Shown here piece by piece: positions 7,377 to 29,039 of a DNA stretch of 49,688 nucleotides. Under the pieces are notes generated by a model. That model was not told where the DNA came from, did not search any database, and saw nothing but the letters and a program-made list of their open reading frames with translations. Source of the DNA: a virus; IMG/VR virus record IMGVR_UViG_3300036790_000126, positions 1-49,688 of that record. One strand, written 5' to 3'. Position 1 is the stretch's first letter. Every line of letters begins with the position of its first letter. Made by a program: the position numbers and the translations under genes.

Positions 7377-8560
7377 CTTCGTCTGTCGTGCAAATGTTGA
7401 GTGTCGGTGACACCGTCCCTTTGGGTTCCATTCTGGCGAATGTGCATCTTCTGGGTGTGGCGACCGATCCGACGACCCCGAACATGTTCGCGGCGACGTT
7501 GGAGATGTTCGGTGATCAGGGTGTTTTGACGGTTCCGGTGTTGCAGGGTCCGCAGGGCCCGCAGGGTAGTCCGCAGTTCGCGTTGATGTTTCAGAATGAC
7601 AGCCTGGCCGCCCCAAGCGATTTGCCGGACAATCTGACTGACACGTCTGCGGATATCGGGAAGTATTGGATTTTCGCTAACACTGACAGCAACGGAAACG
7701 TCGTCTCCACCTCGGCTTACATTTGGTACGGCACCGAATACCGGGAACTTCCCATGGGTTCTCAGGGTCCGCCGGGGCCGTATCCGGTGATCACCCCTGT
7801 TGTGGATTTGATCGACTCCGATCTGAACTCGTTTGTGACGGTGTCTGGTCCGACGTCGAATCCGCAGTGGCAGCTGAACCTTGCCGTGCCTACGGGGCCG
7901 CAGGGGCCGGCGTCGGCGTTGGCGCAATGCCCGGACGTGAACCTATCCACCCCCCCGACGGTCGGGCAAGTACTGGGATTTAATGGGGCCTATACGTCGG
8001 GTGGGGCGCCGATCTTTCAGCCCATGGACATCGGGGACATCATGCCCCGCCCGTACACGATCCCGGAGTCCGCGTTCCAATCCTATTCGGGGATTACGGG
8101 CGGTTCGCAGACGATTTGCACGTGGCAGGCCCCCACGCAGCAGTGGGCGTGGCAGCCGTGGATCACCGGCCAGATCGATATCACCGGCATCGACTTGTCG
8201 TTCACACCGTTGTTGAGTGTTGAGGTGCGCATCGGGGACCCCGGCAGCGGCCCGATAGTGGCGTACGGCAATGCGAACACCTCCGGGTCGATCACGATCG
8301 TTCCCCACACGTCGTCGAAGGGTGCCCCGTCGACGGCGATGTCCCCCACGAACGGTTACGCGCAGACCGCGGCCGGGGCGAACACCACCGTGTACGTGAA
8401 CTTGTTGAACACGGGGTTGGCGACGGCCTACAGCTTCGCACCGGCCAACGCACAGCTGGGGATGCTCGCACTCCCGGTGGGTACTGAGAGGGCTTTGCCG
8501 ACAGCGTATTTCGGGACGTTCGGCGGTCGGGTCACTTTGTCCGCGACATGGAGCTTCTAG
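7373..8560 (+). CDS. Minor tail protein with collagen-like stretches
   Basis: This 395-residue protein starts at a GTG overlapping the previous stop. Short collagen-like Gly-X-Y runs occur at about residues 58-66 (QGPQGPQGS), near residue 126 (GSQGPPGP) and near 173 (GPQGPASA). They separate beta-rich globular parts, as in trimeric phage tail fibres. The C-terminal 200 residues look like a jelly-roll or carbohydrate-binding head. It probably forms part of the tail tip and contacts the mycobacterial surface. Confidence 0.8.
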   Translation: MTSSVVQMLSVGDTVPLGSILANVHLLGVATDPTTPNMFAATLEMFGDQGVLTVPVLQGPQGPQGSPQFALMFQNDSLAAPSDLPDNLTDTSADIGKYWIFANTDSNGNVVSTSAYIWYGTEYRELPMGSQGPPGPYPVITPVVDLIDSDLNSFVTVSGPTSNPQWQLNLAVPTGPQGPASALAQCPDVNLSTPPTVGQVLGFNGAYTSGGAPIFQPMDIGDIMPRPYTIPESAFQSYSGITGGSQTICTWQAPTQQWAWQPWITGQIDITGIDLSFTPLLSVEVRIGDPGSGPIVAYGNANTSGSITIVPHTSSKGAPSTAMSPTNGYAQTAAGANTTVYVNLLNTGLATAYSFAPANAQLGMLALPVGTERALPTAYFGTFGGRVTLSATWSF

Positions 8561-15105: not shown

Positions 15106-15864
15106 ATGTCCACGGTGTACATGCTGGGCGGCGCATTCTCCGGCCTCAACAACTACATGCCCACCATGCTCGGCGGCAAGATCACCGACGACAACACCGC
15201 AATACAAGTCCCTTACGACAACATGGGCCTGTTTGTGAACACGGTGCAACAGGGCGCAGCGATGTTGAATGCGTTCCTCACCTCCGGGACCGGGCAGATG
15301 GTGGTGTTCGGGCACTCGTTGGGGGCGGTCGTCGGCTCGTATTGGCTCGCCAACTATGTTGATGGCCCCCTCGGCACGACGAGCATCGAACCCGCGGATT
15401 TGTCGTTCGTGTTTATCGGCAACTCCGTGCACAAATACGGCGGCGCGCTCGGACCGGAAGGCGGGGCGGAGTGGGCCAACTGGTTCGGCACCGGTGTGAC
15501 AGCCCCCGACAACACCCCCTACACCGTCACCGATGTGGTGAGACAGTATGACGGCTGGGCGGACTGGCCGACCGGAACCTTCAACGTGGACGCGGACTTC
15601 AACGCCCTGGCGGGCCAAAACTCGGTCCACCCCAACTATCAAAACGTGTCCATCGACCCCAGCGCCCCCGGGAACGTTTCCTACACACCGACTGTCGGCG
15701 GATCACCCGGCAACATTACTTACATTTTTTCGATGACGGAACCCGTCCCGCTGCTGGGCAGCCAGTGGGTTGCACCGATAACAACACTGGACGAAGACCT
15801 CCGGCCGACCATCGAATCCGCCTACAACAGGCCCGTCACCATAGCCACACCGAGTTACACATGA
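15106..15864 (+). CDS. PE-PPE-domain alpha/beta hydrolase
   Basis: 252 residues with the fold and motifs of the PE-PPE domain (serine esterase/cutinase-like) normally fused to mycobacterial PE or PPE proteins. The nucleophile elbow is VFGHSLGAV (Ser71). VRQYDGWADWP carries the candidate Asp (149 or 153) and VHPNY the His (175). VDADFNALAG is the characteristic core of the family. No PE or PPE N-terminus and no signal peptide are present. It lies between tail and lysis genes and overlaps the PLD-like gene by 4 bases. It probably hydrolyses an ester in the envelope, as a tail-borne or lysis enzyme. Confidence 0.82.
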   Translation: MSTVYMLGGAFSGLNNYMPTMLGGKITDDNTAIQVPYDNMGLFVNTVQQGAAMLNAFLTSGTGQMVVFGHSLGAVVGSYWLANYVDGPLGTTSIEPADLSFVFIGNSVHKYGGALGPEGGAEWANWFGTGVTAPDNTPYTVTDVVRQYDGWADWPTGTFNVDADFNALAGQNSVHPNYQNVSIDPSAPGNVSYTPTVGGSPGNITYIFSMTEPVPLLGSQWVAPITTLDEDLRPTIESAYNRPVTIATPSYT

Positions 15865-16403
15865 GCACCGCGCACGCGCTGCACCGCCTCGACGTGTTGG
15901 ACCGATTCAAATATCAGCCGTTCCCTCCCGGCTACCCGTCCACGCACAGATCGTTCTACTCGCCCGTAGACGATGTTCACGGCGCACTGAAATACCTGTT
16001 GGGCTCGGCAACAAAGTCGTTGGTGGTGGCGATGTACGGATTCGACGACCCGGAACTCGCGGACATATTGCGGTCCAAGCTGATCCAGGAACATTGCTAC
16101 GTACAACTCACCCTGGATTCTTCACAAGCGGGAGGAGTGCATGAACGCCAGATCCTGACGCAGGAAAAGTATCCCGCGTCGTCGGTGGCGACCGGGCGCA
16201 GTGAGCACGGCGCCATCATGCATATGAAGGAATGCATCATCGACGGCGTCTTCCTCGTCACTGGCTCAACCAACTGGTCCATCGGGGCAGAAACCAAGCA
16301 GGACAATCAGTTAACGGTTATCGCCGACCCATACGTGTGCGCTGAAGCCCGCGCCCGCATCGATTGTATCCACGCGAACATGATCGCAAAGGCCAAGCGA
16401 TGA
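15861..16403 (+). CDS. Phospholipase D-like protein with one HKD motif
   Basis: About 180 residues from the ATG at 15861 (overlapping the previous stop). HMKECIIDGVFLVTGSTNWS near residue 120 is a clear HxKx4Dx6GSxN motif of the PLD superfamily. An N-terminal half YSPVDDVHGALKYLLGSA plus VVAMYGFDDPELADIL matches the conserved strand-helix before the motif. A single motif implies a homodimeric nuclease or phosphodiesterase (Nuc-like), not a two-motif phospholipase. It could cut DNA or act on phospholipids; context with lysis genes favours envelope action but does not prove it. Confidence 0.82.
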   Translation: MSTAHALHRLDVLDRFKYQPFPPGYPSTHRSFYSPVDDVHGALKYLLGSATKSLVVAMYGFDDPELADILRSKLIQEHCYVQLTLDSSQAGGVHERQILTQEKYPASSVATGRSEHGAIMHMKECIIDGVFLVTGSTNWSIGAETKQDNQLTVIADPYVCAEARARIDCIHANMIAKAKR

Positions 16404-16703: not shown

Positions 16704-17867
16704 ATGATTCTACAAAGCAGCGCCGACTGGGTCTTGGCGAACGCCAAAGCACGGTTGGACGACCCCTACGTGTATGGGGGTGTTTATTCTCCTACTGATT
16801 TGACGGAGGGAGCGGACTGCTCCGGCGTCGTCGGCTGGGTGTTGGAAGCATTAACTAAAGGCCCCGCGCACATGTCGTGGGCGCACAACGTGTCCACCGA
16901 ATCCTGGTATTACGACTACAACACCAATTGCCCTGCCGCCCCGGGAACTGTTGGCCCGTACGGGACTATCGCCGTCGCAAACCTCGCAGACATCCCCGCC
17001 GATGCCGCTTTGACGATCGACATCATGCACGGTGGGGGTGGGGAAGACTCCCACACCAACTGCTCCCTGCAAGGCACCCTGATCGAATCCAACGGCGATT
17101 ACGGTTCCTGCACCAACGGCACCGGCGCCTACGCTACCGACGCCCCCCTATGGACCGATCACTATTACCTGCCGGGGCCACTTGTCAACGACGCCAACAT
17201 AACTCCGCTGTTCTACCCGGATGTGTCGAACGTCAACTGGGGCGAACCCTACAGTGACGCCGGGAAACAAACCCTCCTCAATTTCCTTGCCACCGCGAAA
17301 CAAGCTGGCATGGCAGGGATTCAACACAAGGTCACCCAAGGCTCTGACTTCAAAGACCCCTACTGGCCGGCCTTCCGGCAGTGGTGCGAAACCAACGACA
17401 TGTCATGGCTTGGCTACCACTATGTGGATCAGTCCGACCCCGACAGCCAGGCCGCGAACTTCGCCGCCAACAACGGCGGCCAGTGGGCCATGCTGGACTT
17501 CGAGCAAGGCGCCGGGAACATCTCCCAGTTCTGGAACGTGGTGAACGCCTTCAACAACCACGGCATATCCGTATCCATGGCCTACATTCCGAACTGGTAT
17601 TGGGGACAGATCGGGCAACCCGACCTATCCTATTTGACCGGCAACCAAATCAGTCTGGTGTCCTCCAACTATCCAGGCGGGACGGGGATTCCGCAGCACA
17701 TCTACACCGGGCCTTCTGGTCCCGGCTGGGTGTCCTACGGGGGTTGCGCCCCGACTGTCTGGCAGTTCACCGATCAGGCCCTCATTGGGGGAATCAGCGT
17801 TGACTGCAACGCATACCTCGGTGTCGGCCCGAACCTCAACGCACTATTCACCGGAAACATCTTCTAA
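16704..17867 (+). CDS. lysA: Lysin A: NlpC/P60-like peptidase plus GH25 muramidase
   Basis: A 387-residue endolysin that cuts peptidoglycan at lysis. Residues 1-155 form a peptidase-like domain with ADCSGVVGW (Cys39) and a following IDIMHGGGGEDSHTN His region. From about residue 172 there is a glycoside hydrolase 25 domain starting YPDVSNVNWG, with MLDFEQGAG as the acidic catalytic strand and VWQFTDQ near the end. No cell-wall-binding domain or signal peptide is seen, so release needs the holin. The two-domain modular layout is common for mycobacteriophage lysin A. Confidence 0.9.
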   Translation: MILQSSADWVLANAKARLDDPYVYGGVYSPTDLTEGADCSGVVGWVLEALTKGPAHMSWAHNVSTESWYYDYNTNCPAAPGTVGPYGTIAVANLADIPADAALTIDIMHGGGGEDSHTNCSLQGTLIESNGDYGSCTNGTGAYATDAPLWTDHYYLPGPLVNDANITPLFYPDVSNVNWGEPYSDAGKQTLLNFLATAKQAGMAGIQHKVTQGSDFKDPYWPAFRQWCETNDMSWLGYHYVDQSDPDSQAANFAANNGGQWAMLDFEQGAGNISQFWNVVNAFNNHGISVSMAYIPNWYWGQIGQPDLSYLTGNQISLVSSNYPGGTGIPQHIYTGPSGPGWVSYGGCAPTVWQFTDQALIGGISVDCNAYLGVGPNLNALFTGNIF

Positions 17868-17875
17868 GGAGCAAA

Positions 17876-18214
17876 ATGACCGCCGATCAAAACGTCGACA
17901 ATCTCATGAACGGTGCAGGAGCATCCGGAGCACTTCCCGAAGCCTTGGTGGCGATGCTGTACAACGCCAACCTCCTCGGACTGTCGAAGGATTACGCCTA
18001 CAAAGAAAGCGCAAACACCTCGGCCTCAAGGTACGACCAGATCACCACAATGGCGAAGATCCTCACCCGCACCCACACCCATGCGGACGGCAACAGCTAC
18101 GACATCTGGGACGCCGTGCAGACGATCCTAAAATGGGTTTTGGCACAGGACTTGACGATCAACAACGGTGAGGTCAACTCAGTCACCCCTGCCCCCCCCA
18201 AGCCGGCGGCATGA
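17876..18214 (+). CDS. Lysis-cassette protein of unknown function
   Basis: 112 residues, Ala-rich helices (GALPEALVAMLYNANLLGL) followed by a Pro-rich tail PAPPKPAA. It has a good AAGGAG ribosome site and a 4-base overlap with lysin B. The gene sits between the two lysins; similar small genes there are conserved in mycobacteriophages but not assigned. No TM segment. Confidence 0.7.
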   Translation: MTADQNVDNLMNGAGASGALPEALVAMLYNANLLGLSKDYAYKESANTSASRYDQITTMAKILTRTHTHADGNSYDIWDAVQTILKWVLAQDLTINNGEVNSVTPAPPKPAA

Positions 18215-19158
18215 CCTCAAGCCTCTTCGTCAACGTCCGCGCCCACCTCAACGGACTGGCGTATGCCCCGGCGGGTGCTATCTTCGCTGTCGAAGGAACC
18301 GTCTATCCAGGCGCTCCTGCCCCTCCAAGTTTCATCACCGATGACGGTAACGGGTATTGGTGCGGCTTCGCTTCCGGTGTGGTCGGCGGTTTGGCCAACG
18401 TGCAGGACGGCTTGTGGGCATCACCGGGGGTCGGGTATCCGGCGGTGACCGCACCTATGTGGCCTTCGGTGCAGACCGGGCGCGCGAATCTCAATGTGCA
18501 ACTCGGTAATTACGCCACAAACTATTACAAGCAGCACGGCAGCTACGACGGGATGGTTATCCTCGGCTCGGCGTGGTCGCAGGGCGCGATGGTGTGGTGC
18601 CAAACATTCTTCCAGGACATCCTGCCTACCTCTGGGACGCTGCACTACCTGCTGCCCTATATCTACCGGCTGTATCTGTTCGGAGACGTATTCCGCTGCC
18701 CCGGTATCGCACATGGCAACGAGATGGCCGGTATGCCGATGCCACCCAAGCTCGACGGACAAACTACCGGCGGCATCGGCGGACCACTGGACTACACCGT
18801 GGAGCAAGCGAATCTGCTTGCACCGGACGGCAAGTACCTCGTCAACAGCTTCGTCAACCAGAACGACCTCTACGCCGACGCGCCGTGCGGCGATACGCCG
18901 TGGACATCATTGCCGTCGGTGGGCAGCGTTGAGTACATGTTCTTCCAGCTCATCATGCAGCCAGATTTCGCCGACATCGTGTCTTTGGCAAAGTTACTCG
19001 TAAAACCGGTCGGAGATATCGAAGCCCTTGTGAACACTGCTGAGTTCTTCGCCGCCGGCAACAACGCTGGCCACTACCAGTACACCCAGGGCATGGACGC
19101 GGCGATCAATGATGCGCTGGCATTAGGTAATTCGTTACCACACAGCCCCGGCTACTGA
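18211..19158 (+). CDS. lysB: Lysin B, mycolylarabinogalactan esterase
   Basis: A 315-residue cutinase-like serine esterase that frees the mycolic acid layer from arabinogalactan. The nucleophile region reads LGSAWSQGAMV (Ser123), so the usual Gly before the Ser (GYSQG) is Ala. YLFGDVFRCPGIAHGNEMAG and the later NDLYADAPCGDTPW and AGHYQYTQG carry the expected Asp and His. Length and order, just after lysin A and before the holin, are typical. It limits the host range to mycolic-acid bacteria. Confidence 0.9.
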   Translation: MTSSLFVNVRAHLNGLAYAPAGAIFAVEGTVYPGAPAPPSFITDDGNGYWCGFASGVVGGLANVQDGLWASPGVGYPAVTAPMWPSVQTGRANLNVQLGNYATNYYKQHGSYDGMVILGSAWSQGAMVWCQTFFQDILPTSGTLHYLLPYIYRLYLFGDVFRCPGIAHGNEMAGMPMPPKLDGQTTGGIGGPLDYTVEQANLLAPDGKYLVNSFVNQNDLYADAPCGDTPWTSLPSVGSVEYMFFQLIMQPDFADIVSLAKLLVKPVGDIEALVNTAEFFAAGNNAGHYQYTQGMDAAINDALALGNSLPHSPGY

Positions 19159-19177: not shown

Positions 19178-19498
19178 TTGATGTTCTGGCACCGCCGCTG
19201 CACCCATCCGGTCCGCTGCCGCGACACCATCTTCAACGGCACCTACTGGGTGACGTTGTGCGGGTTGTGCGGCGAAATTTTCAGCATGAAACCCGATGAA
19301 AGGAACAACATGTCGTTTTCTTTGAGCTCACTTCCGTCGAAGGCCGAGGTTGAAGCCGATTTGGCGAAGGTGGCCGACGTGCTGGCGGTCGTGGAAAAGT
19401 ATGAGGCCGCGCTGCCGTTGCCGGCGACCGTGAAAACAGGCATCGCGGATCTGCAGAAGGCGTTGACGTTCGCGCAGGATGTCCTGAACGAACTATGA
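19178..19498 (+). CDS. Small protein, Zn-ribbon-like start plus helical tail
   Basis: 106 residues from ATG 19178. The first 45 residues carry paired Cys (RRCTHPVRCRDT and LCGLCGE) like a zinc ribbon. The rest (from an internal ATG at 19310 with its own AAAGGAAC site) is a helical SxPSKAEVEADLAKVADVL unit. Either one protein or two overlapping in-frame products are possible. It overlaps the holin start by 4 bases. Confidence 0.55.
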   Translation: MMFWHRRCTHPVRCRDTIFNGTYWVTLCGLCGEIFSMKPDERNNMSFSLSSLPSKAEVEADLAKVADVLAVVEKYEAALPLPATVKTGIADLQKALTFAQDVLNEL

Positions 19499-19737
19499 CC
19501 ATCTGGACGGTGGCCTACTGGAAGTCCACTGCTGAGCTTGTCGTAAGGGGCGCCGCTATCGGCGCGGTGGCAGGGATGGGTGGCTCCCTGGTCGATGCGT
19601 GGCATTTGAACTGGCACACTATCGGCGGCCTGGCCCTGTCGTCGGCGTTGCTGTCGTTGGTGACGTCGCTGTCCTCCAGCCAGGTCGGGCAGAAGGGCTC
19701 ACCCCTGGTGACCGAGCATCACGCGGAATCCCCGTGA
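19495..19737 (+). CDS. Holin (r1t-type)
   Basis: 80 residues with two hydrophobic helices (about 17-35 and 41-58) separated by DAWHLNWHTIGG, the signature of r1t-like mycobacteriophage holins (MTIWTVAYWKSTAE start). It should form the membrane lesion that releases lysin A. It directly follows the lysin genes and is coupled to both neighbours by 4-base overlaps. Confidence 0.88.
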   Translation: MTIWTVAYWKSTAELVVRGAAIGAVAGMGGSLVDAWHLNWHTIGGLALSSALLSLVTSLSSSQVGQKGSPLVTEHHAESP

Positions 19738-20265: not shown

Positions 20266-20651
20266 GTCACGAGTTGCTGCTGCCGATTATTGTGGCCCTG
20301 ATCACCGGCCCCGGGGGTTGGGGGGCGCTGCAGCTGTGGCTGAACAACAAGCAGAAAAAAGACCAAGCCACCAAAGATCGTGAGCATGAGGACTCTAGGA
20401 CGTGGTATCGGGAGTCACGCCACCATTACGACATAGCGAATGAGGAAGCGTCCAAGGCGCGTGCGGAATGCAACGAATGCCGCCACGAGCTGGAAAAAAC
20501 CCGCTCCGTGGTGTACATGCTGTTGGAGGATTTCGAGGACCAGATCCTACCCATGTTCACCCTTCCCGACACGGATCCGGTGGAGGTGCGGAAAGCGTCG
20601 CGGGCGATCATCAAACGGGCCAGGGACACGTTAAATGCTTCGCCCCGCTGA
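20262..20651 (+). CDS. Membrane-anchored coiled-coil protein (DUF2746-like)
   Basis: 129 residues from a GTG. One N-terminal TM (LLLPIIVALITGPGGWGALQ) is followed by a long charged coiled coil with a CNECRHELEKT motif. This pattern resembles DUF2746 proteins found after lysis genes in mycobacteriophages. The coiled coil could span the periplasm, spanin-like, but that is inference. It overlaps the next gene by 17 bases. Confidence 0.7.
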   Translation: MSHELLLPIIVALITGPGGWGALQLWLNNKQKKDQATKDREHEDSRTWYRESRHHYDIANEEASKARAECNECRHELEKTRSVVYMLLEDFEDQILPMFTLPDTDPVEVRKASRAIIKRARDTLNASPR

Positions 20652-20958
20652 CCGGGCGTGGATTTCGATTGGGATCGGTGTGGTGGCCTACGACTTGCTG
20701 GCTGCACCCGGTCAGACCCTATCTGAGGGCGCCGACCGGTACATGCTGTCCCATCCCTGGATCACCCGGGCCGTGGCCGCAGCTCTGGCGGGGCATGTCT
20801 GCAACGTTCTCAGGCCGGAATATGACCCCATCCATTTGTTGTTCGCGGGCGCCCGCGCGTGGAGGGAGGCGCGATGGACTTCGGGGCGCTCTCACCAGAG
20901 AGGGGCGTGGACCTATCAACGGGCTGGAGGGCTTCGGCATCGCCCGTCGGACTCGTAA
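20635..20958 (+). CDS. Small membrane-associated protein (DUF7427-like)
   Basis: 107 residues starting MLRPADRAWISIGIGVVAYD. It matches the family of mycobacteriophage proteins with MLRPADRAW, a short TM, then DRYMLSHPWITRAVA and a DPIHLLF box. Family members usually end soon after that box. Here the last 35 residues (from about GARAWREAR) run into the inverted-repeat segment and look unrelated, so the C-terminus may be a late extension. Confidence 0.7.
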   Translation: MLRPADRAWISIGIGVVAYDLLAAPGQTLSEGADRYMLSHPWITRAVAAALAGHVCNVLRPEYDPIHLLFAGARAWREARWTSGRSHQRGAWTYQRAGGLRHRPSDS

Positions 20959-20978: not shown

Positions 20979-21080
20979 GAGCCCAAAGCTCTTACTGGCT
21001 CGTGTCCAATTCTTCGCGCCTGTTCCCCCGCTGGCATCACTTGCACAGTCCTGGACGTCCAGCCCGTTGATAGGTCCACG
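20906..21080. repeat. 23-bp perfect inverted repeat bounding a 129-bp segment
   Basis: 20906-20928 (CGTGGACCTATCAACGGGCT then GGA) is the exact reverse complement of 21058-21080. The enclosed 129 bp encode nothing convincing, and no target duplication was noticed. The segment lies between a possible PPE fragment and the intact PPE gene. It could be a MITE-like insertion, an invertible segment or a large RNA hairpin regulating PPE. The exact match over 23 bases shows it is recent or constrained. Confidence 0.85.
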
Positions 21081-21107
21081 CTGACATAGACGATAGCAGG
21101 AGGGCCG

Positions 21108-22121
21108 GTGGATTTCGCGGCCATTCCTCCAGAAATCAACAGCGCCCGCATGTACGCCGGACCCGGAGCGGCATCACTAACTGAGGCGGCGAACGCGTGG
21201 AGCATGTTGTCTCAAGAACTCTCCACCGCGGCTACCGAGTATGGTTCTGCCGTTACAGCCTTGGGTGGGGTGTGGCAGGGGGCGAGCGCGGCGGCGATGA
21301 CGGCGGCCGCGCACCCGTTCCTGGGGTGGCTTCAGTCGACCAGTGAGCTGGCGGGGCAGTCGGCGGTGCAGGCGAACGCTGCGGTGGGCGCGTTCACCAC
21401 GGCCTATACCGCGACTGTCCCGCCCCAAGTAGTAGCAGCGAACCGAACCCAGTTGACAACACTGATTGTCACCAACTTGTTGGGGCAGAACACTGCTTTG
21501 ATCGCGGCTGTGGAAGCCGCGTACGCGGAGATGTGGGCGCAAGACGCCACCGCCATGTACGCCTACAGCGCAGCCTCAGGCACAGCATCATCGGGTCTAC
21601 CGAAGTTCACGCAGGCCCCGCAAACCACCAGCGGAAGCACTGCTCCTGCGGCTACTGTGGCGTCCTCTGATTTGTTCAACTCCTATGCGGAAGCATTCCT
21701 GTCGTCGGGGGCATTCCAGGACATTCCGTTGGCGTTCCTGGTGCTGTTCAACGGGATCACCGCGGAGAAAACCAGCGAACTTGCCGCCGAAGGCGCCGCA
21801 GCCGAAGCGTTCGGTGCCCCAATCGTGGCTGCACCAAGCCCATCATCTGTGAAAGCACCCGCTGCTGTGTCTGCAGCACGCGGTGCGGCCGGCCGGATCG
21901 GGGGATTAACGGTCCCACCGTCATGGGCTAGATCATTACCGCAGCCAGAACCCGCGGCGTCGCCGGTATTCGCCAAAGTCACCAACCCCAAAGCCGCCAT
22001 CCCCGCTGTCCCATTCATGCCTGTCACCGGACTCCGCAGCAACCAAGGCAAGGTCAGGAGCGAGCCCGAGTATGGGGTTGTCCGTAAGGTGATACCCGGC
22101 AGGCATCCCAGCGGAGGCTGA
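21108..22121 (+). CDS. PPE-family protein, PPE-SVP subgroup
   Basis: 337 residues from a GTG with a GCAGGAGGG ribosome site. MDFAAIPPEINSARMYAGPG, a WQG turn (Trp56), the FTTAYTATVPPQVVAANRTQ helix, LLGQNTALIAAVEAAYAEMW and AQDATAMYAYSAAS cover the full 180-residue PPE domain. GGLTVPPSW near residue 265 is the GxxSVPxxW motif of the SVP subgroup, with a PxxPxxPxxG-like end. PPE proteins are exported by type VII (ESX) systems as heterodimers with PE proteins; no PE gene lies beside it. Chromosome-type cargo in a phage. Confidence 0.92.
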   Translation: MDFAAIPPEINSARMYAGPGAASLTEAANAWSMLSQELSTAATEYGSAVTALGGVWQGASAAAMTAAAHPFLGWLQSTSELAGQSAVQANAAVGAFTTAYTATVPPQVVAANRTQLTTLIVTNLLGQNTALIAAVEAAYAEMWAQDATAMYAYSAASGTASSGLPKFTQAPQTTSGSTAPAATVASSDLFNSYAEAFLSSGAFQDIPLAFLVLFNGITAEKTSELAAEGAAAEAFGAPIVAAPSPSSVKAPAAVSAARGAAGRIGGLTVPPSWARSLPQPEPAASPVFAKVTNPKAAIPAVPFMPVTGLRSNQGKVRSEPEYGVVRKVIPGRHPSGG

Positions 22122-22503: not shown

Positions 22504-23037
22504 TTAGACATCAAACAGCCTCGGCTCCGGTTTTCGGCCCAATCGTCCGAGGCCCCATGTCAGCAAGCAGCATCCGAACGGGGGCCGCTCATTCGGTCCT
22601 ACACCTATTGCGCCTTCACGAATGAACCTCATGCGGCCCGGTAGAAACGTCACGCATAGCGGTGAGTCCTCCTGATCCCGTCGTGGCTCTACCCAGCGCT
22701 GCCACCAGGACTGCTCACAGCGGTTCGCGGGTAACAGCATGGCGATACCGTCCGTCTGTGGGTACTCGTCCCAAGCCTTCTGTGTCCATGCCCCGATGTT
22801 GGAATACGGCGGGTTGCACCACACTCGCTCGCCTGCCCATGATTGCCGCAGACCATCGTCGCGGATTGTGAAGAACTTGGCGCACTTCGCATTGTGTGGT
22901 GCGGCAGCGACATCCAGCGTGAACGGTCCGAGCGTGTCGAACCATGCGAAATCCTCAGCGGTCGTGCCACGGTCATCCACCTCGTCGCTGACTTGCTGCT
23001 GCGGGTGGTTCTGCGCTTTGAAGCCGATGAGACTCAT
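22504..23037 (-). CDS. Phage DNA N6-adenine methyltransferase (Dam-type)
   Basis: About 177 residues from ATG 23037 (an upstream ATG at 23058 is less likely because 23037 overlaps a preceding stop). It contains the NPPYS catalytic motif (VWCNPPYSNIGAWTQKA) and FTLDVAAAPHNAKCAKFFT, the signature of phage DNA N-6-adenine methyltransferases (pfam05869 family). It would methylate adenine and could protect the phage from host restriction. Confidence 0.9.
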   Translation of the reverse strand: MSLIGFKAQNHPQQQVSDEVDDRGTTAEDFAWFDTLGPFTLDVAAAPHNAKCAKFFTIRDDGLRQSWAGERVWCNPPYSNIGAWTQKAWDEYPQTDGIAMLLPANRCEQSWWQRWVEPRRDQEDSPLCVTFLPGRMRFIREGAIGVGPNERPPFGCCLLTWGLGRLGRKPEPRLFDV

Positions 23038-23185
23038 GTCAACCCATAGACGGCGCACGATTCCCGATTCAATGGCGAGCAGTCACATCGCGCCTTCATG
23101 CGGCGGTCGATGCTGCGGGCCTTGACGATTAGACCGTTCGATACGGCGCAGTTGTACTCCTGGCGGTCAATTTCTTGCTCGTCAC
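23034..23185 (-). pseudogene. Small Cys-containing gene with a frameshift just after its start
   Basis: An open frame reads CDEQEIDRQEYNCAVSNGL through to ESCAVYGLT and stops in an ATGA overlap with the methylase start, but it has no start codon in frame. A GTG at 23185-23183 lies one base out of register. Adding one base after GTG-AC would give an intact 50-residue protein. Either a one-base deletion or an unusual start is implied. Paired Cys resemble its neighbours. Confidence 0.45.
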
Positions 23186-27519: not shown

Positions 27520-28389
27520 TTACGCCGCCCCACCGTGGCTGGCTGCAGCTTCGGCTACCGCGCGGATTTCCCTAGCAGCAACCGCTGTGTAGCGCTGTGT
27601 CGTCGCCACCGATGCGTGCCCTAGAGCTTCCTGGACTGCTCGCAGATTCCCGGTACCCGCATAGCCTCGGGTGGCGAAGCGGTGCCGAAGTTTATGCATC
27701 GACCAGCCGGGCGGCATCACCTTACTGACGAGGTGCCCGACCCGGTCGGGGCTGATGTGTCCGTCGATCTTGCCGGGGAACAGAAACCCTCCGAACGGGG
27801 ACGCCTTGGCGAGTTCGGCAGCGAGGGTGACGGTGATCGGCACGACCCGCTGTTTGTTGCCTTTGCCGTGGACGATCAGTTCGGCTCCGTCGATGCCGTT
27901 GACCAGATCATCGCTGTGTACGCAGGCGACCTCAGCGCGGCGTAACCCTGCTTCACAGGCTAGGCGCGCCATCAGGCGGGTGCGTTCGTCGGCCGTCGCC
28001 AGGATTTGGCGCCACATGTCATCGGTCGCGGGCCGCGGTGCCCCGATCGCGGCCCGCACAGATGGGAGAGTGAGTGTCGGGTCGGCATCGACCACCCCGG
28101 ATATGGCGCACCAGCGGTAGAATGATCCCAGGCTGGCCCGCAGACCTCGTCGGTGTTCAATCGAATACTGCGGACGCCCGAGAACAGCCAATAGGTCGTC
28201 GCCCGTTACATCACGGGGATGGTCGGTCCCGATGCGACGGGCTACTGCGCGGACGTGGGAGCGCCGTGTTCGCTGTGTCGCCTGGGATGTTCCGGCGGCG
28301 ATCAACCAAGTCATCCACCCGGTGACGGCGGTATCCCAAGCATATGGTAGAGAGTAAGAAAGACTATGTAATTGCCCCATGGGGTGCAT
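27520..28389 (-). CDS. int: Tyrosine integrase
   Basis: 289 residues from ATG 28389 (GGAGAG site); an upstream ATG at 28419 is less favoured. An N-terminal SAM-like domain is followed by the catalytic domain: CEAGLRRAEV (Arg), HGKGNKQRVVP (Lys), HKLRHRFATR (His-x-x-Arg), LGHASVATTQRY (His, Tyr). It catalyses attP-attB recombination. The C-terminus ends SHGGAA; a di-alanine tail is the kind of ClpXP-type degradation tag reported for Int in integration-dependent immunity phages. Confidence 0.92.
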   Translation of the reverse strand: MHPMGQLHSLSYSLPYAWDTAVTGWMTWLIAAGTSQATQRTRRSHVRAVARRIGTDHPRDVTGDDLLAVLGRPQYSIEHRRGLRASLGSFYRWCAISGVVDADPTLTLPSVRAAIGAPRPATDDMWRQILATADERTRLMARLACEAGLRRAEVACVHSDDLVNGIDGAELIVHGKGNKQRVVPITVTLAAELAKASPFGGFLFPGKIDGHISPDRVGHLVSKVMPPGWSMHKLRHRFATRGYAGTGNLRAVQEALGHASVATTQRYTAVAAREIRAVAEAAASHGGAA

Positions 28390-28544
28390 GTTTACTCTCC
28401 GGTAACTTAGATGGTGCATTCATTCAGGTGATTGCCAGCCCCAATACAACGCTTTGGCAGGTTCGCGTTCAGTAATTCCTCCCCGCCTCTCGGGGACCAA
28501 CCTCTAATCAACAGATTACAGGTTTGTAATTCACAGCGGGCGCA
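28390..28544 (-). other. int-rep gap with small palindrome
   Basis: 155 bases without a clear gene. They contain ATTACA-GGTT-TGTAAT (28515-28530), a perfect six-base palindrome, overlapping GATTACAGGTTT (28514-28525), which recurs at 28632-28643. Possibly integrase arm or core binding sites. Confidence 0.5.
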
Positions 28545-29039
28545 TCACGCTGCCATAGGCACCCCGTACGGTAGAGTCGCGCTCAGTCCCCTGTAGCTCA
28601 ATCTGGCAGAGCATTCGGCTGTTAACCGAAGGATTACAGGTTTCTCTAGACCCTCAGTTGGACCGATCTGGCGGGTAGCTTCCTCGTTGAGAGAGCCGTC
28701 TTCCTCCATGACGAGGATGCGTGCGCGGCGCGGGATGTCGATTATTCGATCATTAGACGGGGACGCTTCTTTCTCCGCATCCCCTTGCGGAGGGTGAGGC
28801 ATCGCGTCGCCACCTTCAATCCAACTGAGCGGGACCGAACAGTGGAAGGCCCACGCGCGCAGGGTAATCCTGCGGGGGGCGACGCGGCCGAGTTCGGCGT
28901 TGCCGATGGTGTTGCGCGAGACTCCTATGAGCTCGGCGAGTTCCTCTTGCTCGTAGCCGGCGAATTCACGGGCTATGCGCAGGCGGTGGCGTAGCAGCAC
29001 TGGCGGGATCTGACCCGCCTCATATGCACTGGTTGTCAT
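28545..29039 (-). CDS. Immunity repressor with attP core in its 3' end
   Basis: 164 residues. A Cro/C1-type helix-turn-helix at about residues 17-60 (RLRIAREFAGYEQEELAELI, VSRNTIGNAELGRV) is followed by a dimer or linker region. Residues 133-151 (KPVILRLTAECSARLSYRG) are simply the antisense of a tRNA-Asn segment, and the tail LSATLPYGVPMAA ends in AA. After integration at tRNA-Asn the last 13 residues would be replaced by host-encoded sequence. This matches the BPs-type system, where loss of a C-terminal degradation tag stabilises Rep. Confidence 0.85.
   Translation of the reverse strand: MTTSAYEAGQIPPVLLRHRLRIAREFAGYEQEELAELIGVSRNTIGNAELGRVAPRRITLRAWAFHCSVPLSWIEGGDAMPHPPQGDAEKEASPSNDRIIDIPRRARILVMEEDGSLNEEATRQIGPTEGLEKPVILRLTAECSARLSYRGLSATLPYGVPMAA
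28587..28643 (+). other. attP: Probable attP core: 5' part of tRNA-Asn (GTT)
   Basis: TCCCCTG, the D-arm GCTC...GAGC, the anticodon arm TTCGG-CTGTTAA-CCGAA (anticodon 28621-28623) and the T-stem start ACAGGTT follow tRNA-Asn up to the T-loop. After 28643 the match ends and no 3' acceptor strand is present, so it is not a working tRNA gene. It lies inside the repressor gene beside int, where an attP core is expected. A TAGAGT box 10-15 bases upstream could serve as a promoter for the rebuilt tRNA. Confidence 0.8.

Follow-up and report, generated by a model that had tools for sequence, protein, structure and literature searches.

PPE proteins form a family that mycobacteria export to the cell surface, where they account for a large share of the surface proteins. 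Here we describe a PPE-SVP gene carried by a phage, located at positions 21108–22121 of a 49,688-base contig from IMG/VR (record IMGVR_UViG_3300036790_000126, the whole of which is called the window below). The window is a temperate siphovirus of slow-growing mycobacteria.

Host PPE-SVP proteins of the PPE15, PPE18 and PPE38 type share with the phage protein the PPE domain, the WxG turn, the hydrophobic tip that binds EspG and an SVP-type C-terminal motif, and the PPE domain of PPE15 is 53% identical to that of the window PPE. PPE-SVP proteins are ESX-5 substrates in which helices 4–5 bind EspG; the host members have 350–468 amino acids (PMC7028111), and the window PPE is shorter (337 amino acids). 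Unlike them, it is encoded by a phage, lacks neighbouring PE or Esx genes in the window, shows phage-like codon usage and lies on a separate tree branch. PEST systems of M. abscessus prophages (PMC10654092) resemble it as prophage genes that use host type VII secretion and combine a conserved secretion domain with a variable C-terminus. However, PEST includes a WXG100 partner, a polymorphic toxin and an immunity protein, whereas the window PPE has no toxin domain, no toxin or immunity gene was matched among its neighbours, and the window yielded no WXG100 gene at E ≤ 0.1, the sole weak WXG100 echo lying inside the PPE itself. Plasmid-borne PE/PPE genes of Mycolicibacterium ESX loci (PMC8190616) also place PPE on a mobile element, but type VII secretion genes stand alongside them, while the phage PPE stands alone. 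By its description, the PPE family gene MAV_0790 of prophage phiMAV_1 in M. avium 104, to which PMC3986857 gives one sentence, is a further mycobacterial prophage case. No description of a recurrent late-region lineage of phage PPE-SVP genes was found in a literature search that left most subscription papers and bioRxiv preprints outside.

A phage-borne PPE-SVP lineage

The open reading frame starts with GTG and contains no internal stop. The PPE profile PF00823 matched residues 2–162 above its gathering cut-off (E = 3.8e-58, profile positions 1–162 of 165), and the PPE-SVP profile PF12484 matched residues 255–330 with 39.2 bits against a cut-off of 23 (E = 1.4e-9). The PPE-SVP identity proposed earlier from the letters alone (the original prediction) was thus borne out by a profile search. 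Among the motifs named in that prediction, the PPE motif (P7 P8 E9), the WxG turn (W56-x-G58) and the QNTALIAAVEAAYAEMW helix are present, while the expected SVP motif reads GGLTVPPSW, with T in place of S (TVP, not SVP). The nearest solved-structure sequence was that of PPE15 (5xfs_B, 1.8e-42). The AlphaFold model, for which 47 sequences from the window and the loci were used, had a predicted local distance difference test score above 90 throughout a five-helix PPE domain (residues 8–17, 22–55, 59–102, 106–121 and 129–162), with W56–G58 between helices 2 and 3; confidence was low past residue 170. The best Foldseek match of the model was again PPE15, in the PE8-PPE15-EspG5 complex (E = 3.6e-13, target template modelling score 0.89, 53% identity). 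As this is an EspG5-bound PPE of the ESX-5 system, the match supports an ESX-5-type reading.

The gene had been regarded as surprising in a phage, yet PPE genes occur in at least ten other phage or prophage types, and a paper of 2014 mentions one in a prophage (PMC3986857). Viral contigs bearing them were L002, L003, L004, L005, L101, L103–L106, L107 and L108. Of 78 PPE loci from the genome collection, a single one lay clearly in a prophage, in M. interjectum DSM 44064 (L040), where an intact frame of 335 amino acids lies between tail and lysis genes. Upon searching 396 genomes with the PPE C-terminal part, the sole match was genome G124, which contains two prophage stretches, 99.6% identical, with PPE behind the lysis genes and the integrase next in one copy. 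Among isolated phages, tblastn with two different phage PPEs gave no match in 50,697 phage records. All 12 phage PPEs compared keep the PPE motif, the WxG turn and the hydrophobic pair in the EspG-binding tip (LL, VL, FL or LI), and the phage frames are intact at 39–54% identity.

A maximum-likelihood tree of PPE domains was built from 11 phage sequences and 45 host PPEs. A branch with support 98/95 split 10 of the 11 phage domains from the hosts, and a quick tree with 66 hosts agreed. The GC content at third codon positions (GC3) of the PPE genes followed that of their own phages (Pearson r 0.87, n = 10, p = 0.001; Spearman 0.56, p = 0.09), with L107 as an outlier (0.82 against 0.70). In the AT-rich phage L108, the PPE GC3 of 0.49 was below that of all 171 host PPEs (minimum 0.67). 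The separate branch and the phage-matched GC3 speak against both a faulty assembly and a recent capture, and from these comparisons the phage PPEs appear to be a long-resident, phage-borne lineage.

PPE genes varied behind their 5ʹ part. Prophages L103 and L104 are 97.5–99.9% identical across long aligned stretches; in their PPE gene at 8001, the 5ʹ part is 100% identical and the remainder divergent, which is what an exchangeable effector region would show. In L109 (8001–8888), the PPE is cut short near residue 112, where the reading frame runs on into a PLD-like (HKD) domain, a stand-alone homologue of which lies in the window (Table 1). A genuine PPE-PLD fusion was considered and set aside in favour of a probable recombination scar, because the PLD part starts at the Met where stand-alone homologues start. 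The L103/L104 and L109 patterns together suggest that the slot exchanges cargo, and that PPE C-terminal parts are swapped above a constant secretion domain.

PE-family genes were seen near the PPE in two places. Within the M. interjectum prophage, a PE_PGRS gene (L040 8402–9124, minus strand) lies 0.9 kb from the PPE on the opposite strand and adjoins a short open reading frame resembling a ribbon-helix-helix protein. In the virus-labelled contig L006/L102 (IMGVR_UViG_3300032160_000550), a PE-PPE-WXG100 series follows an integrase-like gene. As PE precedes PPE there, with a WXG100 start behind it and then the contig end, this contig was not accepted as a phage PPE carrier; the series, resembling a host PE-PPE-ESX operon, is probably host flank.

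Genomic slots and candidate roles

PPE genes were found in two slots. The first runs from the tail genes to LysA (G002, L040, L101 and L103–L106), and the second from the lysis genes to the integrase (the window, G001, G004, L107 and G124); in L108 the PPE likewise lies behind lysis genes, and an integrase was not seen in its stretch. In both slots the PPE shares the late-gene strand, and in most relatives its start is 4–14 nucleotides past the preceding stop. Given this tight spacing on the late strand beside tail or lysis genes, late lytic expression would be no less likely than expression in lysogens.

The position beside tail or lysis genes in related viruses and prophages suggests that phages use host type VII secretion to change the envelope. 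We give about even chances to the reading that the PPE is a moron of temperate mycobacterial siphoviruses, an ESX-5-type substrate that uses host PE and EspG5 and alters the envelope. A more specific version is tentative and somewhat less probable: a late-expressed ESX-5 substrate, from a PPE-SVP lineage belonging to phages of slow-growing mycobacteria, that relies on PE and EspG5 of the host to reach the mycomembrane and controls adsorption or lysis there. The basis is the PPE and SVP regions, the genomic setting, the recurrence on the late strand, the separation from host PPEs, the carrier-matched codons and the PE-free window. The protein would be produced late in infection, perhaps in lysogens too, and would pair with a host PE; the helix 4–5 tip would bind host EspG5, ESX-5 would export the protein to the outer envelope, and the variable C-terminal part would alter the envelope there. 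This change would most likely make it harder for further phage to adsorb (superinfection or re-adsorption exclusion); an effect at lysis, where the protein would help to breach the mycomembrane, is the second choice. Hindered adsorption is the favoured candidate effect, with lysogenic conversion and lysis aid as close rivals.

Several points weigh against an exported phage moron. The original prediction that a PE partner is missing held in a profile search of the window at E ≤ 0.1, so export would need a host PE and EspG; the operon partnership with PE, common but not obligatory in the PPE-SVP subfamily, is absent there. ESX-5 secretion is predicted from the hydrophobic EspG tip, the one part of the pathway seen in the window, and with no PE partner alongside we infer export rather than observe it. 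The C-terminal half of the protein is predicted by AlphaFold to be disordered, and the structure therefore reveals no activity. In the window, the tight spacing to the preceding gene is broken and an inverted repeat stands between the late operon and the PPE, which may therefore be expressed differently from the PPEs of other carriers. The PPE of G003 lies among DNA-metabolism genes, away from lysis genes. In the tree, the L005 PPE groups with hosts, the phage branches are long, distant PPE lineages were not used as a root, and host PPEs were sampled through similarity searches.

Lysogenic conversion, in which PPE expressed from the prophage changes the permeability, nutrient uptake or surface of the lysogen, is rather unlikely, though it survives best among the rivals. 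It fits the second slot, between lysis genes and integrase, the fact that host PPE proteins are envelope proteins, and the M. abscessus PEST genes, which adjoin integration functions and are lysogenically expressed (PMC10654092). However, a sigma-70 scan upstream of the PPE with the E. coli-type consensus only found no promoter-like site, and other carriers have the PPE tightly behind late genes on the same strand. This last arrangement, which in most carriers puts the PPE inside the tail-lysis region or last in it, would suit a lysis helper that inserts in or weakens the mycomembrane late, so that LysA, LysB and holin complete lysis. We consider this helper unlikely, since the isolated phages lyse although no PPE was matched in their records, and since PPE slots also hold unrelated cargo such as the PLD-like protein. 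A tail-associated virion protein is suggested by the PPE ending the minor tail gene cluster in L040, L101 and L103–L106, but is very unlikely, as the gene follows the lysis genes in the window and other carriers and keeps the PPE, WxG and EspG-tip secretion features. That the gene is an assembly chimera, or was recently picked up by accident from the dozens of PPE genes in a host genome and has no phage role, has a negligible probability given the recurrence in many phages and in prophages of sequenced bacterial genomes, the phage-matched GC3, the separate branch and the intact diverged frames, and assembly error in particular was rejected because the window PPE is surrounded by phage genes, between lysis genes and integrase.

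The window and the junction upstream of the PPE

The gene order in the window is tail genes, endolysins, holin, PPE, integrase and repressor (Table 1).

Table 1. Features of the window, with positions as in the 49,688-base contig
Feature	Position	Strand	Remark
Tape measure	1883		Minor tail genes after
PLD-like (HKD) protein	15765–16403	+	PF13091, 1.9e-12; homologue occupies the PPE slot in related prophage L109
Endolysin (LysA-like)	16704–17867	+	
phrog_102 endolysin (LysB-like)	18211–19158	+	
Holin (phrog_443)	19495–19737	+	Last recognised lysis gene ahead of PPE
DUF7427/phrog_1042 gene	20635–20958	+	Upstream of PPE
Putative remnant of earlier PPE gene start	20874–20903	+	MDFGALSPER, ten codons; overlaps end of DUF7427 frame
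Inverted repeat, left arm	20905–20928	+	Perfect, 24 bp; between PPE remnant and intact PPE
Inverted repeat, right arm	21058–21081	-	
PPE-SVP protein gene	21108–22121	+	337 amino acids; PF00823 and PF12484; fold match to PPE15 (5xfs_B)
Tyrosine integrase	27520–28419	-	76% identical to integrase of M. interjectum PPE prophage
Repressor gene	28545–29039	-	tRNA-Asn-like attP core 28594–28630 in its 3ʹ end
Terminase	42502		
Portal	44308		
Protease	45741		
Capsid	46663		

Upstream of the PPE, a degenerate PPE-start pattern matched at 20874 and 21108 alone, with none expected in shuffles. The DUF7427 match ends at residue 77 of 107, and the frame reads on through the PPE remnant, which lies at the expected end of the DUF7427 gene. 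The arms of the inverted repeat enclose 129 bases, and the stretch folds strongly (z-score −5.7). We considered a known mobile element as its source and set this aside; there was no exact match in the viral contigs searched and one weak 34-bp match in 297 genomes. The remnant, the inverted repeat and the intact PPE could together be the scar of an allele replacement.

Around the integrase, the tRNA-Asn-like attP core in the 3ʹ end of the repressor gene, with the integrase adjoining, resembles integration-dependent immunity, a layout reported for mycobacteriophage BPs (PMC4557955). An Rfam scan of the window gave just a sub-threshold tRNA-like match. Three PPE phages have TAATC-N4-GATTA palindromes next to their integrase (window 28499–28525; L040 18093–18119; L107 near 12803), which are possible operators or integrase arm sites. 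A partial DNA methyltransferase match on the minus strand at 22504–23058 (phrog_111 positions 53–204 of 345) is perhaps a fragment.

Meaning for mycobacteria and their phages

To our knowledge, most PPE proteins have no known role. In the phage lineage a PPE has to be useful to its carrier, which makes for a simple system open to experiment, and the lineage links phage biology with ESX-5 secretion. PPE genes, along with the variable C-terminal parts that they encode, may also travel between mycobacteria on phages. Should the phage PPE block superinfection, this would bear on which phages to choose for therapy against slow-growing mycobacteria. If the proposed reading is true, the protein would be a phage effector sent outward via the type VII secretion system of the host.
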